NCBI GenBank assembly: GCA_004294095.1
Contig: RDZR01000027.1
Location: forward strand, 17,248-81,247
Origin: Verrucomicrobiota bacterium
Lineage (GTDB): Bacteria > Verrucomicrobiota > Verrucomicrobiia > Verrucomicrobiales > Akkermansiaceae
Length of the DNA: 64,000 nt
Reading direction: 5' to 3'
Made by a program: the position numbers and the translations under genes. How positions within the stretch are numbered: position 1 is the first letter of the stretch; each line of letters opens with the position of its first letter. This document shows positions 1,780 through 12,908 of the stretch, piece after piece. The notes under the pieces were generated by a model. That model saw nothing but the letters and a program-made list of their open reading frames with translations. It was not told where the DNA came from and did not search any database.

Positions 1780-3045
1780 ATGAATGGTAAGCACATATTG
1801 ACAATGATGCATGCGAGCGAGCTTTTACAGGCGCGCGCGATTGATGAAATAATGCAACGCTTGGCACCTGACTTTGATGATTTGCCTGCATTTCCCAAGG
1901 TGACAGCGAAGGTCTCAGCCCAGGCGATCAACCGGACGTGGAATCATTTCCCTCACGATCCAGCGGTCAGGCGGGCTTTGCTTGATGCAAGCGAGGACAC
2001 GCAAGCCTACGAGGGCAATATTGAAAATATGATCGGTTTGATAAAAATTCCTCTGGGAGTTGCCGGCCCACTACGTGTTCGCGGTCTCGCTGCGTATGGG
2101 GATTATGCGGTGCCGTTGGCCACATCGGAGGCGGCCTTAGTGGCAAGTTACCACAGGGGCTGCCGCGTGATCAATGAGTCAGGTGGCTGCACGACTTTGA
2201 TCCTATCAGAATGTGTGACGCGCTCGCCGGCATTCATTTTTGCAACGGCTACGCAATCTGCACGCTTTGTGCTTTGGGTGTTGGAAAATTTTTCTGTGGT
2301 CAAAGGAATTGCCGAGTCCACCACTGCGCATGGACGATTGACGGACATTGGTTGCATCGTCGAGGGTAACCACGCTTACCTGAATCTTGAATACACCACG
2401 GGCGATGCTGCTGGGCAAAATATGGTGACCATTGCCACTCAAGCTGTATGCGATTGGGTGGGTGAGCACTGCCCGCTCAAGCCGGAGAAAATTTATGTGG
2501 AGGGAAATGCCTCAGGCGATAAAAAGGCGAGCGCTAAATCGTTCATGCATGTGCGTGGGAAAAAAGTATCGGCAGAAGTGTTGGTGCCCGGGCTGGTTCT
2601 CAAACAACGTCTGCATGTAACGGCTAAGGAAATGGAGCAATACTGGCGCGTTTCTGCCATTGGCGGTGTGCTCAGCGGAACCATCGGTGTGCATGGGCAT
2701 TTCGCAAATGGATTGGCGGCTTTGTATCTCGCCACGGGGCAAGATGTGGCGTGCGTGGCAGAGTCCGCTGTGGGCGTAACTCGATTTGAAGCGCGCGATG
2801 ATGGATCGCTTTACGCCACAGTCACACTGCCGAGCATCATTGCGGGCACAGTGGGTGGCGGCACATCGATGCCTACCGCGGCGGCATGTCTCGATCTCAT
2901 GGGTCTGCGCGGAGCAGGCAAGGCTCGTGCTTTTGCCGAGGTGTGTGCCGCGCTTTTGTTGGGCGGCGAGCTATCGATCATTGCAGCGATGGCAGCAGGC
3001 CACTTCAGCCGCGCTCACAAGAAACTTGCTAGGAAAAAACCATGA
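1780..3045 (+). CDS. hydroxymethylglutaryl-CoA reductase (class I-like)
   Basis: ENMIGLIKIPLGVAGPL, EGNASGDKKASAKS, GQDVA, GTVGGGTSMPTAAACL and C-terminal AAGHFSRAH; catalytic Glu/Lys/Asp/His positions look intact. Confidence 0.92.
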   Translation: MNGKHILTMMHASELLQARAIDEIMQRLAPDFDDLPAFPKVTAKVSAQAINRTWNHFPHDPAVRRALLDASEDTQAYEGNIENMIGLIKIPLGVAGPLRVRGLAAYGDYAVPLATSEAALVASYHRGCRVINESGGCTTLILSECVTRSPAFIFATATQSARFVLWVLENFSVVKGIAESTTAHGRLTDIGCIVEGNHAYLNLEYTTGDAAGQNMVTIATQAVCDWVGEHCPLKPEKIYVEGNASGDKKASAKSFMHVRGKKVSAEVLVPGLVLKQRLHVTAKEMEQYWRVSAIGGVLSGTIGVHGHFANGLAALYLATGQDVACVAESAVGVTRFEARDDGSLYATVTLPSIIAGTVGGGTSMPTAAACLDLMGLRGAGKARAFAEVCAALLLGGELSIIAAMAAGHFSRAHKKLARKKP

Positions 3046-3929
3046 AGTGGTGGATTTATCAAAAAGAGCGATTTTCTCTGGTTGCACACGCACCGTTGAT
3101 CTTGGCATTCAGCGCCTGCGGGGTATCGTATTCTGCATTACTCGTGGGCACGCGTCCGAGTTTGGTCTCCTTTGCCGTGGCGTTTGCAGTTTGTCTGATG
3201 ATGTTCATGCAACTACGCATCGCGGATGAATTCAAGGACGCTGAAGATGATGCGCGTTGGCGGCCCTATCGCCCAGTTCCTAGAGGTTTGGTAAGTTTAG
3301 CCGAGCTGCGCGGATGGTTCATCGCCTTTGCGATCGCGCAGTTGGCATTATCCGCGCTGTTAGACCTGTGGCTGATCGGCCTTCTTCTGGTGGCTTGGTC
3401 TTATCTAACAATGATGTGTGTTGAGTTTTTCTGCCGTGATTGGCTCAAGGCACGGCCGGTCATCTACTTGCTATCACACATGGGCATTATGCCATTGGTA
3501 GATTGGTTCGCTACCGCCTGCCATTGGGCTCCAGCGGGTCATGGCATGCCTGCCGGTCTTGGCTGGTTTTTAGCGGCCAGTTTTTTCAACGGAATCGTCA
3601 TCGAGCTGGGGAGGAAAATTCGCCGCAAGGAGGATGAAGAAGAAGGCGTAGAAACCTACAGCGTTTTATGGGGGAAAAAACGGGCGACAATTGCTTGGTT
3701 GGCGACCATGCTGCTGACACTATTATGCGGATGGCGGGCATCGCTCTTGACCAACTTTCATGAAATTTTTCTCTGGTGCACAATCCCTGCTTTTTTGCTT
3801 TCCGCGTGCGTGGCTTATCTTTTTATCATTTCTAACAAAAGCAGCAAAGGCATCGAAAAGCTATCGGCGTTGTGGACCTTGGCATTGTATCTCATACTTG
3901 GAGTGATTCCATTATGGCTGAAATATTGA
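3042..3929 (+). CDS. UbiA-superfamily prenyltransferase-like membrane protein
   Basis: Multi-TM; Asp-rich motif RIADEFKDAEDD and second motif ELGRKIRRKEDEEEGVETYSVLWGKK; ATGA overlap with the HMGR gene. Confidence 0.8.
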   Translation: MKWWIYQKERFSLVAHAPLILAFSACGVSYSALLVGTRPSLVSFAVAFAVCLMMFMQLRIADEFKDAEDDARWRPYRPVPRGLVSLAELRGWFIAFAIAQLALSALLDLWLIGLLLVAWSYLTMMCVEFFCRDWLKARPVIYLLSHMGIMPLVDWFATACHWAPAGHGMPAGLGWFLAASFFNGIVIELGRKIRRKEDEEEGVETYSVLWGKKRATIAWLATMLLTLLCGWRASLLTNFHEIFLWCTIPAFLLSACVAYLFIISNKSSKGIEKLSALWTLALYLILGVIPLWLKY

Positions 3930-6322
3930 GTGAAATCGATTCGTTTGATCCGATGGTGAGCGGCGGTAAAGCTGCCTCTTTGAGCGCACTGCGGCGTGCG
4001 GGATTTGAGGTGCCAGACTTTTTTGCCATCCCACCAAATGTCGTATTCTCTGAGCAAGAGCTTGGGGACTGGCTTCTGCGACTTGGGAGTGGTCCCTATG
4101 CCGTGCGCAGTTCTTCGCGTGATGAAGATGGGGTCAATCATTCCTTCGCTGGGCAGTTTGCCACTTTTCTGGATGTGGCAGCGGTCGATATTGCCGAGAA
4201 AATAGCGATTGTTAGAGCATCCGCAAGCGCGGAGGCAATCCTACTCTATGCAAGAGAAAAGAAGATTCCGCCACCTGCTGTGCCGGCAGTGTTGATCATG
4301 CCGATGCTCGATGCGCGGGCAGCTGGGGTTTGCTTTAGTGCAGATCCGGTGGGCGGGCGGCGTGCTCTCGCAGTTTTATCCGCATGTGAAGGCACCGGTG
4401 AAAAGCTGGTATCAGGTGAGGTGGATGGAGAAGATTGGAAAATTTTCCGCAAAGGGGAGGCAGTCGGCCAGCAAGGAGTTATTTCAGCAGATGATGCGAA
4501 AAAAATAGCTGACTTAGCATGGCGCTGCGAGAGGCATTACATGCGACCGCAAGACATCGAGTGGGCGATTGATCGAGCCGGGAAATTATGGCTTTTGCAA
4601 TCTCGCCCCATCACCACGCTTGGTCATTGCCCAGATCCTGACGACACTTTGCGCGTATTTGATAATAGCAACATCGCAGAAAGTTACAGTGGCATAACCA
4701 CGCCGATGACTTTCTCATTTGCGCAGCGGATTTATGAATCCGTCTATCGCGAGTTTTGTTTTTTATTGGGTGTCCCGCATGAACGCATTGCCGCCGCGGA
4801 TGATGTTTTCCCGCAGATGCTGGGTATGATTCGCGGCAGGGTGTATTACAATTTACTCAGCTGGTATCGGGTGCTGGCGCTGCTGCCGGGATTTAATGTG
4901 AACCGCACTTTCATGGAGCAAATGATGGGTGTGAAAGAACCGTTGCCCAAGACATTGGTGCAAAAGGTCGTGGCAGAAAATGAGCGCGGACGCCTCGCCG
5001 ATAAGTGGCATCTATTCAAAACCTGCCTTGGTCTGCTACGTGGATTTTTCTTGTTAGAAAATCAGATCAAGCAATTCCGCCTACGACTTTCCAAAGCACT
5101 TGATACTCCCCTACCCCAATCAATGGATGGCGAAGCGATGGCTGCGGACTATCGAAGATTGGAAGGCATGTTGCTCAAAAAATGGGATGCACCTCTCGTG
5201 AATGATTTTTTCGCCATGATTTTCCACGGCTTGGTGCGTGGCCTATGCGGAAAGTGGTTTGCTTCCGAACCTCAACTCGTCAATGACCTAATGGCAGATT
5301 GTGGCGAAATTATCAGCGCTGAACCGCCGCGAAGAATCTGCCAAATGGCGGAAATGGTTGCAAAAAATTCATCTCTAACAAAATTGCTAGCCTCCAGAGA
5401 AACTCCCGTGGCAGAAAAAATCCGCGGCTTGAGAGCAGACACAACATTGGCTCGCGAATGGGATACATACCTGCAACGCTTTGGGGACCGCTGCCTTGAA
5501 GAACTTAAATTAGAGAGTCTCAACGTCGCCGATGATCCATACGCACTATTGCTATCGCTTGGCCTGCTGGCGCAGCGTGGAGTCACCAAAGCTGATTCGA
5601 TCAATCAGGTGGTGATGAGACCCAACTTACCTTGGTGGAAGGATAAAATTTTTTGCTTCGTTCTAACAAATGCGCAGCGTTTAGTGAGAAACAGGGAAAA
5701 TCTTCGCTTTGAAAGAACACGCTTGTTTGGCCGCGTGCGAGCCTTGGTTTCTGGCATGGGCCGAGTGCTCTATGCCGATGGCACCATCAATGAAGCGAAC
5801 GATGTTTTTTACCTCAATCTTAATGAGCTGTTAGCCGTGTGGGACGGCACAGGAACCACCAGTGATTTGCGCGGATTGATAGCTGCTAGAAAAAGCGAAT
5901 ACGCTGGCTACCAGCAGATGCCTGAACCTCCTGACCGGATTGTATGTCACGGGCCATTGCACCGATACGAAGAATTTCCTGCAATTAAACCGGCCGTGAT
6001 GGATGATGCGTTGATGCAGGGAGTCGGAGCCTGTGGTGGCATTGTCCGCGGCAAAGTCCGTGTGGTGTTAGATCCAAGACAGGTGGAAATGGCGGCAGGT
6101 GAAATCATCGTTGCCCGTCAGACCGATCCTGGCTGGGTGGTGCTTTTCCCCTCCGCAGCTGGTTTGTTAGTCGAGCGCGGCAGCTTGCTTTCCCACTCGG
6201 CGATTGTTTCCCGAGAACTACGCCTGCCATGCATCGTATCACTACCTAACATCACTCAGATTCTCAAGAATGGCGATGAAATAGAAATGAACGGCGGCAA
6301 TGGAACTGTTAGAATGTTATGA
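3914..6322 (+). CDS. PEP synthase/PPDK-like phosphotransferase (PEP/pyruvate-binding ATP-grasp plus mobile His domain)
   Basis: GGKAASLSALRRAGFEVPDFFAIPP, YAVRSSSRDEDGVNHSFAGQF, QDIEWAIDRAGKLWLLQSRPI; C-terminal GSLLSHSAIVSRELRLPCIV. ORF extends to 3872; start 3914 preferred. Confidence 0.88.
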   Translation: MAEILSEIDSFDPMVSGGKAASLSALRRAGFEVPDFFAIPPNVVFSEQELGDWLLRLGSGPYAVRSSSRDEDGVNHSFAGQFATFLDVAAVDIAEKIAIVRASASAEAILLYAREKKIPPPAVPAVLIMPMLDARAAGVCFSADPVGGRRALAVLSACEGTGEKLVSGEVDGEDWKIFRKGEAVGQQGVISADDAKKIADLAWRCERHYMRPQDIEWAIDRAGKLWLLQSRPITTLGHCPDPDDTLRVFDNSNIAESYSGITTPMTFSFAQRIYESVYREFCFLLGVPHERIAAADDVFPQMLGMIRGRVYYNLLSWYRVLALLPGFNVNRTFMEQMMGVKEPLPKTLVQKVVAENERGRLADKWHLFKTCLGLLRGFFLLENQIKQFRLRLSKALDTPLPQSMDGEAMAADYRRLEGMLLKKWDAPLVNDFFAMIFHGLVRGLCGKWFASEPQLVNDLMADCGEIISAEPPRRICQMAEMVAKNSSLTKLLASRETPVAEKIRGLRADTTLAREWDTYLQRFGDRCLEELKLESLNVADDPYALLLSLGLLAQRGVTKADSINQVVMRPNLPWWKDKIFCFVLTNAQRLVRNRENLRFERTRLFGRVRALVSGMGRVLYADGTINEANDVFYLNLNELLAVWDGTGTTSDLRGLIAARKSEYAGYQQMPEPPDRIVCHGPLHRYEEFPAIKPAVMDDALMQGVGACGGIVRGKVRVVLDPRQVEMAAGEIIVARQTDPGWVVLFPSAAGLLVERGSLLSHSAIVSRELRLPCIVSLPNITQILKNGDEIEMNGGNGTVRML

Positions 6323-7425
6323 TCCAATCTGAAGTTCAAAATCGCGCCAGCTTTGATTACATCCGTTATGCGCAATGCTGGGAAGATGCGGACATATTGG
6401 TATCCGCGCTTGCACCGCAAGGCCGCGCGTGTGTCAGCATCGGCTCGGCGGGTGATAATTGTTTTTCTCTGCTAGCAGCCGGCGCCGCATCGGTCACTGC
6501 GGTGGAAATGAACGCCGCTCAAATCGCTTGTATCGAATTACGGCGTGCGGCGTATTTGACGCTGGAGCACCCTGAGTTTTTGGAATTGTTAGGATCGCGT
6601 GCGTCATCAGATTGTTTATCTCTGTATCGCAAATGCCGCGGCATCATGGATGCGAATGCTCGAAATTTTTGGGATACAAGGCGTGATCTCATAGCGGCAG
6701 GTATCGGTTCGGCTGGAAAATTTGAGAGTTATTTCTGCTTGTTTCGTGAACGCATCCTGCCGCTTGCCCATGGTAGGAATCGGGTGCGCCAATTGTTAGA
6801 ACCAGCAACACTGGAAGAGAGACGTGTTTTCTATCAAAAACAATGGAACAACCTGCGCTGGCGAACTATTTTCCGCGTGTTTTTTTCACGTTTTGTCATG
6901 GGACACATGGGGCGTGATCCGGAATTTTTTCAATACGTGGAGGGCAACGTCGCGGATCGTATCCTTGAGCGCACGCGCCACGCTTTGGTCGAGATGGATG
7001 CCGCTGCAAATCCTTATTTGCATTGGATTCTAACAGGCACTCACGGTGAAGCCTTGCCGCATGCGTTGCGTCCGGAATCGTTCGAGGCGATTCGCTCAGC
7101 ATTGTCCCGGCCGGGTGCTTTTGAGGTAATCAATGCACCGTTAGAAGCATTCCTCGCTACCAGTGGCACAACATTCGATGCATTCAATTTGAGCGATATC
7201 TTTGAATACATGAGCGAGTCATCCATGAATTCAATTTTGCAGGAAATAGTGTGTCATTCTAACAGCGGCGCGCGTCTAGCGTATTGGAATATGCTGGTGC
7301 CTAGGAATCGTCCACAAGCGATGGCTGATGTTCTTTTTCCGTTAGAGAAAGAAGCTGCTAGATTGTTTTTTGAGGACAAAGCGTGGTTTTATTCGCGCTT
7401 CATCGTCGAGGAGGTATTGGCATGA
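6319..7425 (+). CDS. DUF3419 family protein (BtaA-like 3-amino-3-carboxypropyl transferase)
   Basis: YAQCWEDADILVSAL....VSIGSAGDNCFSLLAAGAASVTAVEMNAAQ; NLSDIFEYMS; ATGA overlap with the upstream gene. Confidence 0.82.
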   Translation: MIQSEVQNRASFDYIRYAQCWEDADILVSALAPQGRACVSIGSAGDNCFSLLAAGAASVTAVEMNAAQIACIELRRAAYLTLEHPEFLELLGSRASSDCLSLYRKCRGIMDANARNFWDTRRDLIAAGIGSAGKFESYFCLFRERILPLAHGRNRVRQLLEPATLEERRVFYQKQWNNLRWRTIFRVFFSRFVMGHMGRDPEFFQYVEGNVADRILERTRHALVEMDAAANPYLHWILTGTHGEALPHALRPESFEAIRSALSRPGAFEVINAPLEAFLATSGTTFDAFNLSDIFEYMSESSMNSILQEIVCHSNSGARLAYWNMLVPRNRPQAMADVLFPLEKEAARLFFEDKAWFYSRFIVEEVLA

Positions 7426-8702
7426 ATGTGCTGCTGCTGTGGTTGGCATTTATTGGCTTGTGGAGCGCAGTGGCATGGGCGGCCAAATCATTCCATTGGC
7501 AAGCAGAATCAAGCCGAAAAGCAATTCACACCGGCATGGGACTGGTGTGTGCTTGTTTTCCATGGTTTTTTTCTCATCCGTGGGAGGTATGGATGCTCGC
7601 TATATTGTGCGTGATTCCACTGGCAGGGGCACGAGTTTTTCCAAATGGGTTTCCAAAGGCGATGAGTGCCGCACTCAATCGGGTGACGAGGCGTTCTTGG
7701 GGCGAGCTGCTTTTCGCTCCATCGGTGGCTCTGGCCTTTACTTTCGGCCATCAGAACCGGCCGTTATTCACCGCCTGTATTCTTCTGTTAGCCTTGGCCG
7801 ATGCCGCCGGTGCTTTGGTGGGGAAACGTTGGGGAGCAAACGGCTACGCCACGATGAGCACTAGAAAATCAGTGGAAGGCAGCTTGGCGGTGATGATTTC
7901 TGGCGGCCTAGTCGTATTTCTGGTGCTATGGATCGCAGCGGTGGCCCCGATCGGAAATTGCCTTTTCATCGCCATGGTGGCGGGATGCTTGGTCGGCATG
8001 ATCGAAGCGGTGGCGGATAGCGGGTTTGATAATCTCACAATTCCTGTGGGTATGTTTCTAATTCTCGATCGGCTAATTGTCTTGGATCTGGGGGATCTTA
8101 TCGCGCGGTTAGCCGTGCTCGGTTTTCTCGCAATCACGTTATTACTCAGTGCGCGGCGTAGCACGCTAGACGGTGGCGCGTTGTTGGCAGGCTGCCTGTT
8201 GCTCTATGCCTGCCATGCTCTTGGTGGTTGGCTATTTTTCTTGCCTCCGCTGATGGTGTTTTTGTTTCACTTGCGAGCCTGCATCCGCTGGCAGCTGCAT
8301 CTAAGGATGCATCATGGGGTGATTTCTGTGGCAAGCCTCGGACTACCTGTGATGTTGTGGCTTATCGTTAATGCAACGGAAATGATGCCGCAGAGAGCCT
8401 CTTTGCAAGCTGTCGCATGGTCCTGTGCGGTTTTTCTGGCACTGGCAATGAGCGCGACGAAGTGGAAAATGACCTCGCAACGGAATTTTTGGACCCCGTG
8501 CATGAAAGCCGTGGCAGTTTGCATTCTGCCGCTATGGGTGCTTGGCGAATTTCCCGGATGGCTAAATTTTTCCGTAGGGTTTGCTGTTAGTTTAGCTAGT
8601 GTTTATTTCGGAGCACGCGTGCCACAAGCCGAGCAATCTTATGAATACTCGTGGCGAGCTGCTAGCGCATTACTCACATCCTGCACAGTTTTTTTATCAT
8701 GA
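7422..8702 (+). CDS. polyprenol/phytol-kinase-like multi-TM protein with a possible C-terminal DUF92-like half
   Basis: SSRKAIHTGMGL, LADAAGALVGKRWG, STRKSVEGSLAV, DSGFDNLTIPVG are phytol/dolichol-kinase-like; second multi-TM half begins SARRSTLDGGALLAGCLL; ATGA start overlaps the DUF3419 stop. Confidence 0.68.
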   Translation: MNVLLLWLAFIGLWSAVAWAAKSFHWQAESSRKAIHTGMGLVCACFPWFFSHPWEVWMLAILCVIPLAGARVFPNGFPKAMSAALNRVTRRSWGELLFAPSVALAFTFGHQNRPLFTACILLLALADAAGALVGKRWGANGYATMSTRKSVEGSLAVMISGGLVVFLVLWIAAVAPIGNCLFIAMVAGCLVGMIEAVADSGFDNLTIPVGMFLILDRLIVLDLGDLIARLAVLGFLAITLLLSARRSTLDGGALLAGCLLLYACHALGGWLFFLPPLMVFLFHLRACIRWQLHLRMHHGVISVASLGLPVMLWLIVNATEMMPQRASLQAVAWSCAVFLALAMSATKWKMTSQRNFWTPCMKAVAVCILPLWVLGEFPGWLNFSVGFAVSLASVYFGARVPQAEQSYEYSWRAASALLTSCTVFLS

Positions 8703-9661
8703 AAGACCTTATCGATGATGGCTCACCACATTGGGATCATGAATACTCACAAAATCTTGTGGCGTTAGATGAGAATCCGGATGCGAGGATTGGTATTTAC
8801 GATGGCATGCGCATGTGTGCTCATGCTGCACTTTGGTGGCGTGAAGCGGCTTGCTTGGCGGAAGAAACGATCGGTGTTTTAGGTGGATTTTGCGCCGATG
8901 ATGAAAGTTCTGCTGAAATGTTGCTTAAAGAGGCGCAAACCATGCTTCGCGACCAAAGCTGCAGCATGGTGGTGGGGCCAATGAATGGAAATACTTGGCG
9001 TAAGCACCGGTTTGTTTCATGGTCAGATGGAAGTCCACATTTTCTACTGGAGCCGGCCACTTCTGAGGAGCATCGGGCATATTGGTTGTCTGCTGGTTTC
9101 AAACAGCTTGCCGATTATAGCTCCTCACGTGTGGAGCTCGGTAGAGGAAGCACCATCTCGGATGCGGTGGTGAATCGTTTATCACTCAGCGGGGTGCGCA
9201 CGCGAGGTGTCGAAGTAGATCGATTGGAGCAAGAACTAGCAGAAATACATCGTGTATGCTTGGAGAGTTTTCGCGATAATTTCCTCTACGTCCCGATGGA
9301 GCAGCACGAATTTGTAACTCGCTACATGGCGCTTCGGGCATGGATCTCGCCGGAATACGTTCGGGTGGCGGAATGGCATGGGATGCTTTGCGGCTTTGTA
9401 TTTTCTCTGCCGGATCCCCTCGCCCAGCGCGATGGCCGAGCAGCTGAATTGATCGTCAAAACTCTGGCTGTCTTGCCTAAAAGACACTTTGCTGGATTGG
9501 GCAGCTTGTTGGTGGATCAGGTTCATGCAGCCGCTGAGAAAAATGGCCTGCAGGTGGCGATTCATGCGCTGCAGCGCAATGACAATAGCTCACGACGAAT
9601 CACTGGCCGCCATCAGGGCGTGATTTTTAGGAAATACGAAATGCTGGCAAAAAAAATCTAA
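8699..9661 (+). CDS. GNAT-type acyltransferase
   Basis: VGPMNGNTWRKHRFVSW...GFKQLADYSSSRVEL and C-terminal TLAVLPKRHFAGLGSLLVDQVHAAA acyl-CoA-binding-like motif. Confidence 0.65.
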   Translation: MKDLIDDGSPHWDHEYSQNLVALDENPDARIGIYDGMRMCAHAALWWREAACLAEETIGVLGGFCADDESSAEMLLKEAQTMLRDQSCSMVVGPMNGNTWRKHRFVSWSDGSPHFLLEPATSEEHRAYWLSAGFKQLADYSSSRVELGRGSTISDAVVNRLSLSGVRTRGVEVDRLEQELAEIHRVCLESFRDNFLYVPMEQHEFVTRYMALRAWISPEYVRVAEWHGMLCGFVFSLPDPLAQRDGRAAELIVKTLAVLPKRHFAGLGSLLVDQVHAAAEKNGLQVAIHALQRNDNSSRRITGRHQGVIFRKYEMLAKKI

Positions 9662-9662
9662 C

Positions 9663-11204
9663 ATGAATTTGTTACATCATTTGGTGAAACGAGTCGCAGA
9701 ATCTCCTCACACGATTGCGATTTGCGAGCGTAATGCTGGGAGAGACCGCTCCATCAGCTACCAGCAATTGTATGCACAAATTTGCGGTGTTTCTCGCTCG
9801 CTGAGCGAAAGTGGATTGCGAAAAGGTAATCAAGTTCAACTGCTGCTGCCGGTGGGTATTGATTTGTATGTGGTTTTGTTAGGTTGTTTACATGCCGGGC
9901 TAGTTCCAATCCTGTTGGATCCCTCCGCAGGTGTCAGCAGGATGAGGCAGTGCTTGAAAATCACTGAAATCATGGCCTTCGTGGGTGTCCCCAAGGCGCA
10001 CCTGCTACGTTTTATCATTCCTCAATTGCGAAATGTGCGGGCGTTTTGTCCCTCCCCATTTTTTCCTTTTGCCAAGCGCTTGAAGTTTGATGGCCCCTTA
10101 TTTGATCCGTCCGATGTAAAAGTTGATGCTCCCGCATTATTGACCTTCACCAGTGGCAGCACCGGCCAGCCCAAAGCAGCAGTCAGGACGCACGAGTTTC
10201 TGCTTTCCCAAGATGCGGCCTTGCGCAAGGCGATTTTGTTAGAAAAAGGCGAAGTGGACCTCATCACACTGCCGGTTTTCGTTCTCGCCAATCTTTCGGC
10301 TGGAGCGACTTCAGTGATCGCAGATACACCACTGGCACTTCCGGGAGCGCCAGATCATCAATCCATCAAGCGGCAGTGCGACGACTGGAAAGTAACACGC
10401 TGTTCGGCATCGCCAGCGTTTTTTGAGGGGCTGATGCACGGAGATATGCCACAATTGCAGAAAATTTTCACTGGAGGCGCTCCCGTGTTTCCGGATCTCT
10501 TAAACCGCATTAAAACTCGCTTGCCCCTTGCCCAAGTGACGGCGCTTTATGGCTCTACTGAAGCCGAACCCATCGCAGACCTGCGCTGGAATGATGAATT
10601 CCCGCAGTCGCTCATTGGCGAAGAACTGGGCCTATGTGCCGGAATTCCTGTGCCTGAAGTGAAAGTGAAAATCATCGCCGATCAATGGGGCACATCATTG
10701 GGCCCGTGGACCGAGAACCAATTCTTTGCCCAACAAACGCCTCAAGGACAAGCCGGCGAAATTGTGGTGACAGGAAAACATGTCTTGTCAGGCTATCTCG
10801 GCGGGCGAGGTGATGATGAAACGAAAATTCGCATCGAAAATCAAGTGTGGCACCGCACCGGTGACGCCGGATTCTTTGATGCGGTCGGTCGGCTTTGGTT
10901 ATTAGGAAGATGCTCAGCAAAACTTCCTGCGAGTGACGATTTTCCTATTGTCTATCCATTAATGATCGAGGCAATTCTTCGCACCATCCACTCACAGCAT
11001 CGAGCTGTTGCAGTGGAGCATGGCGGAAAAAGAACTTGGGTTTATGAAATTGGGTGGCCGCACTCAGCTGTGGCCAATGCCTCATCAGCCCTAAATCAAT
11101 ATGGGTTCACCAAAGCCGTATCAGTTTCAAAAATCCCCCTCGATCAACGTCATCAGGCCAAGGTCGATTACGTATCACTACATCGCATGTTGCAAAGTCA
11201 TTGA
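9663..11204 (+). CDS. AMP-dependent synthetase/ligase (acyl-adenylate-forming)
   Basis: TFTSGSTGQPKAAVRTH, ALYGSTEAEPIADLRW, WHRTGDAGFFDAVGRLWLLGR. Confidence 0.88.
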   Translation: MNLLHHLVKRVAESPHTIAICERNAGRDRSISYQQLYAQICGVSRSLSESGLRKGNQVQLLLPVGIDLYVVLLGCLHAGLVPILLDPSAGVSRMRQCLKITEIMAFVGVPKAHLLRFIIPQLRNVRAFCPSPFFPFAKRLKFDGPLFDPSDVKVDAPALLTFTSGSTGQPKAAVRTHEFLLSQDAALRKAILLEKGEVDLITLPVFVLANLSAGATSVIADTPLALPGAPDHQSIKRQCDDWKVTRCSASPAFFEGLMHGDMPQLQKIFTGGAPVFPDLLNRIKTRLPLAQVTALYGSTEAEPIADLRWNDEFPQSLIGEELGLCAGIPVPEVKVKIIADQWGTSLGPWTENQFFAQQTPQGQAGEIVVTGKHVLSGYLGGRGDDETKIRIENQVWHRTGDAGFFDAVGRLWLLGRCSAKLPASDDFPIVYPLMIEAILRTIHSQHRAVAVEHGGKRTWVYEIGWPHSAVANASSALNQYGFTKAVSVSKIPLDQRHQAKVDYVSLHRMLQSH

Positions 11205-11272: not shown

Positions 11273-12217
11273 TTAGTTCGTTTTCCGAAATGTCATTAGA
11301 ATGCCGTTGTGATCAGATCCAGCGCTCTCAAGCACTTTGAAATCAAGCACTTCGATAAACTCACCTACCAACGCATGATCTATGGGAATCGCGATCCATG
11401 GCAATGAACGCTTCCACGTTGGCGAAATGCCATAGCCTCGCCGCGCGTCACGTAATCCTACTCGTGTAAGCATCCTAAAAGCGCGAGACCAAGGGGATGC
11501 GTTGAGATCTCCAACCACGACTGCTTCGGCTGGTTTACCGTCCCAAACAAACTTAGCGATTTCCGAGATTTGTTGATCGCGCAGTTCGCTTCGCATCCTT
11601 CCCATAGGCGGCACTGGATGAGTCGCAACTAGCAGACCTGTGAACTTTGAGTCATCCACACGCGCAACGACTGAAGGCACCTTGGCTAAACCAAAGTTTT
11701 TGATCTCTGCTTTAACTTTCAAGCCTTTCACCAGCATCACTATGCCGAAGTTATCATCCCGCGGTTCCTCGATCGCAGTCGAATATTCATTTTTGAGAGC
11801 CGAAAGCGAACGCATCCAAGAAAAATCTACTTCGTAAAGCACGATAATATCTGGCCCTGACGCTCGTATCAAATCGATCACCTGTGAATGATTTTGGTTA
11901 CTGGTAAAAACGTTGAAGGACAACAGTTTCAACCCAACTGAATTCTCATGCTTTGCCTTGATTGGCAGGTAGGGCAACAGCGAACCAGCCAACAAAACTG
12001 AGAAAAATCCGGCAAAAATCGTCACTCCCCGCGCCTTCAAAACTATCGAGCATACGGCAACTATTGCCAGAACCACCAAATACTGGAGCCGGAAATGTGA
12101 AAGTAGGTCGAAACCCCACCAAAAATCCCCGCATACACCAAGCAAAACGAACACGACAATGGTCAAGGCAACCACAAAGAGGCCAATTCGAACGATCTTG
12201 AGAAATGCTTCTGACAA
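11273..12217 (-). CDS. endonuclease/exonuclease/phosphatase family membrane protein
   Basis: N-terminal TM helices; LLSFNVFTSNQNHSQVIDLIRASGPDIIVLYEV, VVGDLNASPWS, IDHALVG..SDHNGILM. Confidence 0.82.
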   Translation of the reverse strand: MSEAFLKIVRIGLFVVALTIVVFVLLGVCGDFWWGFDLLSHFRLQYLVVLAIVAVCSIVLKARGVTIFAGFFSVLLAGSLLPYLPIKAKHENSVGLKLLSFNVFTSNQNHSQVIDLIRASGPDIIVLYEVDFSWMRSLSALKNEYSTAIEEPRDDNFGIVMLVKGLKVKAEIKNFGLAKVPSVVARVDDSKFTGLLVATHPVPPMGRMRSELRDQQISEIAKFVWDGKPAEAVVVGDLNASPWSRAFRMLTRVGLRDARRGYGISPTWKRSLPWIAIPIDHALVGEFIEVLDFKVLESAGSDHNGILMTFRKTN

Positions 12218-12365: not shown

Positions 12366-12908
12366 TCACCAGCCGGCGATTTTGCGGCACGCTTCGGTGA
12401 GCAGGCTGCGGAGAATGCTGGCTTCACCGTGTGTGATGGGGAGCGTGACTTTACGCAGGCTGCGGTCGGCGGCGGCTTGGCGGGTCAAAGTGATCATGAA
12501 TGGGGCACGCTCCGGATTTTCTGAGGCAATCAGGTGGCAGGTGCTGCTGGCTTTTTCGGATTGGTGGAAAAGTTTCGCTTCGGGCTGATATTTTTCCAAG
12601 GTGGCAAGCAGGCTGCCAATATCAGATAGGTTCCACTTCATCGTGATTTTTTCTTCCCAGAAAAATTGGCGTTCGCCGTTTTGGGGGGCAGCGTCGGTGA
12701 AGATCGCCGCTTTGGAGAGACTCAAGCTGAGACGCATCGCGGCTCCGCTGCCTTTTGCATTCGGCTTGTAAATGGTGAATTCCGGATCGCGCGGCTGGGA
12801 CGTAGGGCGCTGAGCTTGTTGTGGGTTCGCGGTGGCGATAGGCTCATCATCGGGTTGGGCCCAGGCATTTTTTGCGGGGCTTGGAGCGGACGGGTTGATT
12901 GCTTTCAT
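12366..12908 (-). CDS. hypothetical protein, Whirly-like ssDNA-binding fold candidate
   Basis: FTIYKPNAKGSGAAMRLSLSLSK...FFWEEKITMKWNLSDIGSLLATL...AKLFHQSEK...KVTLPITHGEASILRSLLTEACRKIAGW; ordering resembles plant Whirly cores. Confidence 0.5.
   Translation of the reverse strand: MKAINPSAPSPAKNAWAQPDDEPIATANPQQAQRPTSQPRDPEFTIYKPNAKGSGAAMRLSLSLSKAAIFTDAAPQNGERQFFWEEKITMKWNLSDIGSLLATLEKYQPEAKLFHQSEKASSTCHLIASENPERAPFMITLTRQAAADRSLRKVTLPITHGEASILRSLLTEACRKIAGW

Follow-up and report, generated by a model that had tools for sequence, protein, structure and literature searches.

A seven-gene operon shared across bacterial phyla, with an altered member of the HMG-CoA reductase family, as a candidate pathway for an undescribed isoprenoid-type amphiphile

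The DNA analysed here (the window) is a stretch of 64,000 nucleotides from a Verrucomicrobiota bacterium of the Akkermansiaceae, hereafter the host (GenBank assembly GCA_004294095.1, contig RDZR01000027.1, positions 17,248 to 81,247). At positions 1780-11204 it carries seven tightly packed open reading frames (ORFs), all on the + strand, the first of which encodes a member of the 3-hydroxy-3-methylglutaryl-CoA (HMG-CoA) reductase family (HMGR). We propose, with a probability of roughly 0.45, that these genes form a horizontally spread operon for an undescribed, membrane-associated amphiphile of isoprenoid type, which would bear a 3-amino-3-carboxypropyl group derived from S-adenosylmethionine (SAM) and be N-acylated. 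The seven genes are as follows.

1780..3045, + strand: HMGR-family reductase (Pfam PF00368, 375.6 bits; residues compared between 71 cluster copies and 8 canonical enzymes)
3042..3929, + strand: UbiA-superfamily prenyltransferase of a distinct subgroup (PF01040, 66.8 bits; motif invariant in 74 sequences)
3914..6322 (ATG at 3914), + strand: phosphoenolpyruvate (PEP)-synthase-like dikinase (PPS) with ATP-grasp and phospho-His domains (PF01326 and PF00391)
6319..7425, + strand: DUF3419 protein of the BtaA family, a putative SAM:hydroxyl 3-amino-3-carboxypropyl transferase (PF11899, 208 bits)
7422..8702 (ATG at 7422), + strand: putative CTP-dependent lipid-alcohol kinase, a membrane protein with a DUF92-like C-terminal half (motifs and weak profile matches)
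8699..9661, + strand: tandem GNAT N-acyltransferase (Pfam matches of the family, predicted structure)
9663..11204, + strand: AMP-forming carboxylate ligase (AMP-ligase), PRK09274/OleC-like (PF00501, 161 bits)

Four of the junctions are 4-nt overlaps of the ATGA type (3042/3045, 6319/6322, 7422/7425 and 8699/8702), the UbiA and PPS genes overlap by 16 nt (3914/3929), and a 1-nt gap separates the GNAT and AMP-ligase genes (9661/9663). Upstream of the block come a 300-bp region and an ORF on the minus strand (779-1480); on its downstream side a gene of the minus strand (11273-12217) converges on it. A sequence-only reading of this DNA had placed the seven genes at the same coordinates and taken them for one coupled operon; the overlapping or abutting junctions and the conservation of the gene block bear this out. 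The single transcript is read from these two features, scans of the locus for promoters and terminators being at chance level. Five of the seven proteins match Pfam above the cut-off (HMGR, UbiA, PPDK_N with PEP-utilizers, DUF3419 and AMP-binding), and single-sequence Pfam searches gave no match for the kinase-like and GNAT proteins. Among the matches listed, no NCBIfam model lies above its cut-off for any of the seven, so that no member of the set can be equated with a characterised enzyme.

A scan of GTDB genomes for DUF3419 confirmed 184 relatives. The best 80 of these (loci L059-L138) come from at least 13 named phyla and include cultured isolates; many carriers are metagenome-assembled genomes (MAGs), some of whose taxon labels may be binning errors, and several records are isolates. 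Carriers of isolate type include Haloferula, Rubritalea profundi, Alkalilimnicola ehrlichii, Desulfobulbus rhabdoformis DSM 8777 and Microcoleus FACHB-1515. Gene order, on whose conservation in relatives the sequence-only reading had staked its claim, is kept: all seven genes occur in one of two orders in 38 of the 56 loci with enough flank, either HMGR, UbiA, PPS, DUF3419, kinase, GNAT, AMP-ligase, or the same series with GNAT and AMP-ligase moved to the front. In the main order, every one of the six adjacent gene pairs recurs in 51-81 loci, the median gap lying between -4 and 14 nt. The GNAT and AMP-ligase genes stay adjacent in 72 loci despite the permuted order. More distant Verrucomicrobiota have other layouts, in which the AMP-ligase, UbiA and PPS genes are relocated. 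When the kinase-like protein was searched against 59 relatives, 8 or 9 carriers emerged, without or with the host counted; at every locus fetched from this search the DUF3419 gene adjoins the kinase gene, mostly together with GNAT, PPS or AMP-ligase genes. At L079 (Leptolyngbya sp. FACHB-8) the DUF3419 gene stands without any partner within 9-11 kb.

The genes also occur together at the level of whole genomes. Across 390 Verrucomicrobiota genomes, cluster-type DUF3419 is present in 21 and UbiA in 22, of which 21 are shared (hypergeometric p ~1e-33; relatedness is ignored in this value, but 17 genera are represented among the DUF3419 carriers). The 15 cluster-type HMGRs of these genomes, with scores of 375 bits or higher and identities from about 50% upwards, lie without exception within the 21 DUF3419 genomes, and every other HMGR scores at most 208 bits, a clean split from the cluster type.

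Phyla are intermixed in the HMGR tree, and the divergences of the operon genes co-vary (Spearman 0.65-0.84). Six genes, all but HMGR, lie on a 137-kb plasmid of Roseinatronobacter sp. S2 (unnamed3, NZ_CP121116.1; L151), in whose record the kinase and GNAT proteins are annotated as 'hypothetical protein'. Together, the phylum-mixing tree, the co-varying divergences and the plasmid copy argue for movement of the operon as a unit by horizontal transfer. The plasmid copy stands near glycosyltransferase and replication genes. A search of viral contigs with UbiA found no relative.

The HMGR-family protein keeps the catalytic apparatus of its family and has lost HMG-binding residues. In the host the catalytic residues are E82, K248, D322 and H413; in the cluster copies, by human numbering, Glu559 is kept in 66/66, Lys691 in 69/69, Asp767 in 70/71 and His866 in 70/71, and Arg590, Asn686, Asp690 and Lys692 are retained as well. 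In human HMGR, the residues that hold the carboxylate of HMG are Ser684 and Lys735. At the position of Ser684 the cluster copies have Glu (68) or Asp (1; n = 69; E241 in the host), and at that of Lys735 they never have Lys (M, V, I, A, T or L; V291 in the host); Asn736 is mostly replaced by Ser, and Cys688 by Ser. The canonical set (n = 8: human, Methanococcus and six second HMGRs from genomes with HMG-CoA synthase) keeps Ser684, Lys735, Asn736 and Cys688 in 8/8, the human and Methanococcus rows being the firmer controls, as the six second HMGRs misalign in part at the catalytic Glu. Cluster-type HMGRs form a branch apart from the canonical enzymes in the tree; the HMGR of locus L150 is a cluster-type copy by its ESN..GDKK motif. 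At L108 (13569-15758, cyanobacterial MAG UBA8530) the AMP-ligase gene is followed by a long, very divergent HMGR-like ORF of 729 aa (identity 42%, end branch of 5.9), possibly a fusion or a misassembly.

The genomic setting points the same way. No match to HMG-CoA synthase (PF08540) was found in the host genome, which is 97% complete, leucine breakdown being another possible source of HMG-CoA. The host has a single HMGR and carries GcpE, a gene of the methylerythritol phosphate pathway, and in each of the six HMG-CoA synthase genomes tested there are two HMGRs, the first belonging to the cluster type or next to it and the second of the lower-scoring type. Because the HMG-binding residues are replaced, the host has GcpE and no detectable HMG-CoA synthase, and genomes with the synthase keep a second HMGR, the cluster protein is probably a neofunctionalised acyl-CoA reductase rather than a source of mevalonate. 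It would be a working thioester reductase for some other acyl group, perhaps one that presents a positive or polar moiety to the new Glu. The sequence-only reading had noted the missing synthase and regarded the HMGR-family gene as dedicated to the locus, which the PF08540 result upholds; its description of the protein as a normal HMG-CoA reductase is not supported, with Ser684 and Lys735 replaced. The GcpE (IspG) of the host (G000:C86:9190-10863) matches the family in two stretches of a single 602-aa frame, a long form that other carriers of the same order share; G175 and G064 have a single-stretch form.

For four of the other proteins (UbiA, BtaA-like, GNAT and AMP-ligase) the earlier calls hold at family level by Pfam and family matches. 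UbiA has an invariant DE.KD...D motif in 74 sequences (D62, E63, D66 and D70) and exceeds the PF01040 cut-off; all NCBIfam equivalogs for the named subfamilies (UbiA, MenA, DGGGPS and chlorophyll synthase) fall far below theirs, and its profile relatives include chlorophyll synthase and digeranylgeranylglyceryl phosphate (DGGGP) synthase. DUF3419 matches PF11899 over model positions 4-378 of 385, with W21, N47, D200 and D293 conserved, and a PDB search with it gave no match. The GNAT domain of Pfam was found in 64/65 family members; the predicted model (pLDDT 94) has tandem GNATs as its best PDB matches (best E 1e-13). The AMP-ligase has PRK09274 and OleC as best NCBIfam relatives, below cut-off, keeps the C-terminal Lys K500 in 72/74, and is related in the PDB, weakly, to 4-coumarate and feruloyl-CoA ligases. 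The label 'PEP-synthase-like' stands for the architecture of the PPS protein, with its ATP-grasp and phospho-His domains (H761, R65 and E216 invariant in 85 sequences), but not for the PEP/pyruvate-binding C-terminal barrel, since Pfam found PPDK_N and the PEP-utilizers mobile domain only; PDB relatives include chains of the rifampin phosphotransferase type (5fbs/5hv1).

The kinase-like protein shows the motifs RK..H, D..A...G...G, K..EG and G.DN...P in 62 relatives, with E29, R32, K33, H36, D127, G134, G138, K149, G153, G201, D203, N204 and P208 invariant, a set that we take to be the pattern of dolichol and phytol kinases; the proposal of a kinase rests on these motifs. Profile matches are weak (CTP_transf_1, PF01148, in 2/62; DUF92 over about 50 positions of the C-terminal half). 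A profile search of the PDB gave no match, and for the predicted model (pLDDT 92) the best relevant fold match is CDP-diacylglycerol synthase, also weak (prob 0.69).

Five-gene versions comprising UbiA, PPS, DUF3419, GNAT and AMP-ligase, in which neither HMGR nor kinase was found, occur at L085, L114 and L116, and HMGR is absent genome-wide in G175, G064, G142, G062 and G286. Since the five persist there, they would build the basic molecule, and the remaining two would add or supply a part; the core thus probably consists of these five, with the HMGR-like and kinase genes facultative. The presence of HMGR showed no clean association, by eye, with a long form of the kinase, and a search for gene fusions as a clue to step order left none after stop-codon comparison.

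The sequences show a single conserved gene block whose enzymes, where examined, have intact catalytic residues. In the pathway that we propose from these families, UbiA would condense a prenyl diphosphate of the host with an acceptor in the membrane. The PPS-like dikinase would pass the β-phosphate of ATP by way of its phospho-His to an intermediate, phosphorylating or activating it, and DUF3419 would transfer 3-amino-3-carboxypropyl from SAM onto a hydroxyl. The AMP-ligase would activate a carboxylic acid and, because the GNAT–AMP-ligase pair is kept through permuted order, presumably supplies the acyl donor that the tandem GNAT would use on the amine. Where all seven genes are present, an alcohol would be formed by the HMGR-like enzyme from a dedicated acyl-CoA other than HMG-CoA, and the kinase would phosphorylate a lipid alcohol with CTP. 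The simplest chemistry for the five enzymes would yield a prenyl lipid whose hydroxyl is aminocarboxypropylated and then N-acylated, with a dikinase step in addition. Two membrane proteins (UbiA and the kinase) and a BtaA-family enzyme point to a lipid, and an isoprenoid or homoserine-ether-type lipid is the most plausible product class. A stronger version, in which the operon makes a new class of bacterial membrane lipid (isoprenoid backbone, aminocarboxypropyl head, N-acylated) and encodes the first known HMGR-family member to reduce a substrate other than HMG-CoA, having spread horizontally over at least 13 phyla, we hold to be doubtful.

Some points weigh against the amphiphile. The kinase assignment is made from motifs and weak profile matches; the substrates of UbiA and DUF3419 families vary widely, so that the acceptor may be aromatic or a sugar; and the cytochrome P450 (P450) and sulfotransferase genes that neighbour the block in a few carriers would also suit a secondary metabolite. 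One alternative is a meroterpenoid or quinone-like secondary metabolite, in which an aromatic or sugar-like acceptor is prenylated by UbiA, DUF3419 acts on a phenol hydroxyl and the other enzymes decorate the product. The chlorophyll synthase and DGGGP synthase relatives of UbiA, the weak likeness of the AMP-ligase to 4-coumarate/feruloyl-CoA ligases and the P450 and sulfotransferase neighbours all speak for it, but no aromatic-precursor gene recurs in the block and a lipid-alcohol-type kinase with a BtaA-family enzyme fits a lipid better; we consider it unlikely.

Less credence is given to two further schemes. Mevalonate itself might be the building block, made by HMGR, activated to mevalonyl-CoA by the AMP-ligase and transferred to an amine by the GNAT; SidI and SidF handle (anhydro)mevalonyl groups in fungal siderophores in a comparable way. 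Intact catalytic residues, the adjacent GNAT and AMP-ligase genes and the lack of any mevalonate-consuming pathway genes found in the host would suit this scheme, which is nevertheless improbable given the replaced Ser684 and Lys735, the host without an HMG-CoA synthase match and the persistence of GNAT–AMP-ligase in versions that lack any HMGR. About equally improbable is prenol salvage, by which the kinase would remake a prenyl diphosphate from an isoprenoid alcohol, the AMP-ligase and HMGR-like enzyme would turn an acid into that alcohol, and UbiA would be fed. Here the kinase motifs, the DUF92-like half and an HMGR-like enzyme with an altered pocket fit, and a phytol-kinase-like and DUF92-like pair serves tocopherol salvage in plants; however, DUF3419, GNAT and PPS are left unexplained, the AMP-ligase and GNAT remain together in versions lacking HMGR, and the DUF92 match is weak and short. 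A betaine-lipid (diacylglyceryl-trimethylhomoserine-type) pathway with extra genes is very improbable, for although DUF3419 matches BtaA over its full length and, of the four papers found on DUF3419, two treat algal metabolism or plant betaine lipids, no BtaB-like N-methyltransferase recurs in the clusters (the rest of the genome was not searched) and the GNAT fits amine acylation instead.

To our knowledge, neither the gene set nor the altered HMGR has a known counterpart, and the operon differs from each of the known systems that it resembles in part. With class I HMG-CoA reductase it shares the fold family, the catalytic Glu/Lys/Asp/His and Arg590, Asn686, Asp690 and Lys692, but the four substitutions, the separate branch and a host without HMG-CoA synthase set it apart. 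BtaA of diacylglyceryl-homoserine synthesis is matched by DUF3419, which is here accompanied by UbiA, PPS, GNAT and AMP-ligase, with no BtaB partner seen beside the cluster. In plants, phytol kinase VTE5 and phytyl-phosphate kinase VTE6 feed a UbiA enzyme; the cluster has kinase motifs and a DUF92-like half adjoining UbiA, but the two parts are fused and the similarity is weak. Rifampin phosphotransferase and the PigC-RedH ligases likewise combine ATP-grasp and phospho-His domains without a PEP barrel, whereas the PPS-like protein is below the NCBIfam cut-offs and stands in a different gene context. The ebo operon, an uncharacterised mobile biosynthetic operon of bacteria, is likewise built around a new UbiA subgroup, but its metallo-hydrolase, sugar phosphate cyclase, xylose-isomerase-like protein and phosphodiesterase are not shared here (PMC5133447). 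The open-access literature, outside which lie most subscription journals and preprints, gave no description of the operon or of the combination HMGR/UbiA/DUF3419/phytol kinase/PEP synthase, and in the eLife lipocone survey HMGR and UbiA come up in other contexts only.

No widely recurring extra gene family was found beside the block in the locus flanks. Three families from mechanical clustering are not counted as partners, judging by positions and one sequence each: families 7 and 9 resemble ORFs antisense to genes of the block, and the start of family 8 resembles that of a response regulator. A P450 and sulfotransferase pair stands beside the operon at four loci in two phyla (L132, 2433-5002; L134; L042; L068), which suggests later hydroxylation and sulfation of the product, and L095 has the P450 without the sulfotransferase. 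The variant without HMGR and kinase at L114 (859-13654) has a second PPS-like gene, as similarly do L123 and L128, and at L114 a large class-III aminotransferase protein and a SnoaL-like protein are encoded between UbiA/PPS and DUF3419. In the window itself, a 180-aa protein (12366-12908, - strand) is barely over the Pfam cut-off for Whirly (26.1 bits, cut-off 23), a family known from single-strand DNA-binding transcription factors of plants.

A widely shared pathway of constant gene content that has been annotated piecemeal implies that its compound is probably common in nature and unrecorded, and with carriers of isolate type the product can be sought directly. That one enzyme of the HMGR family has apparently been adapted to a different substrate would, moreover, warn against equating every HMGR gene with the mevalonate pathway.

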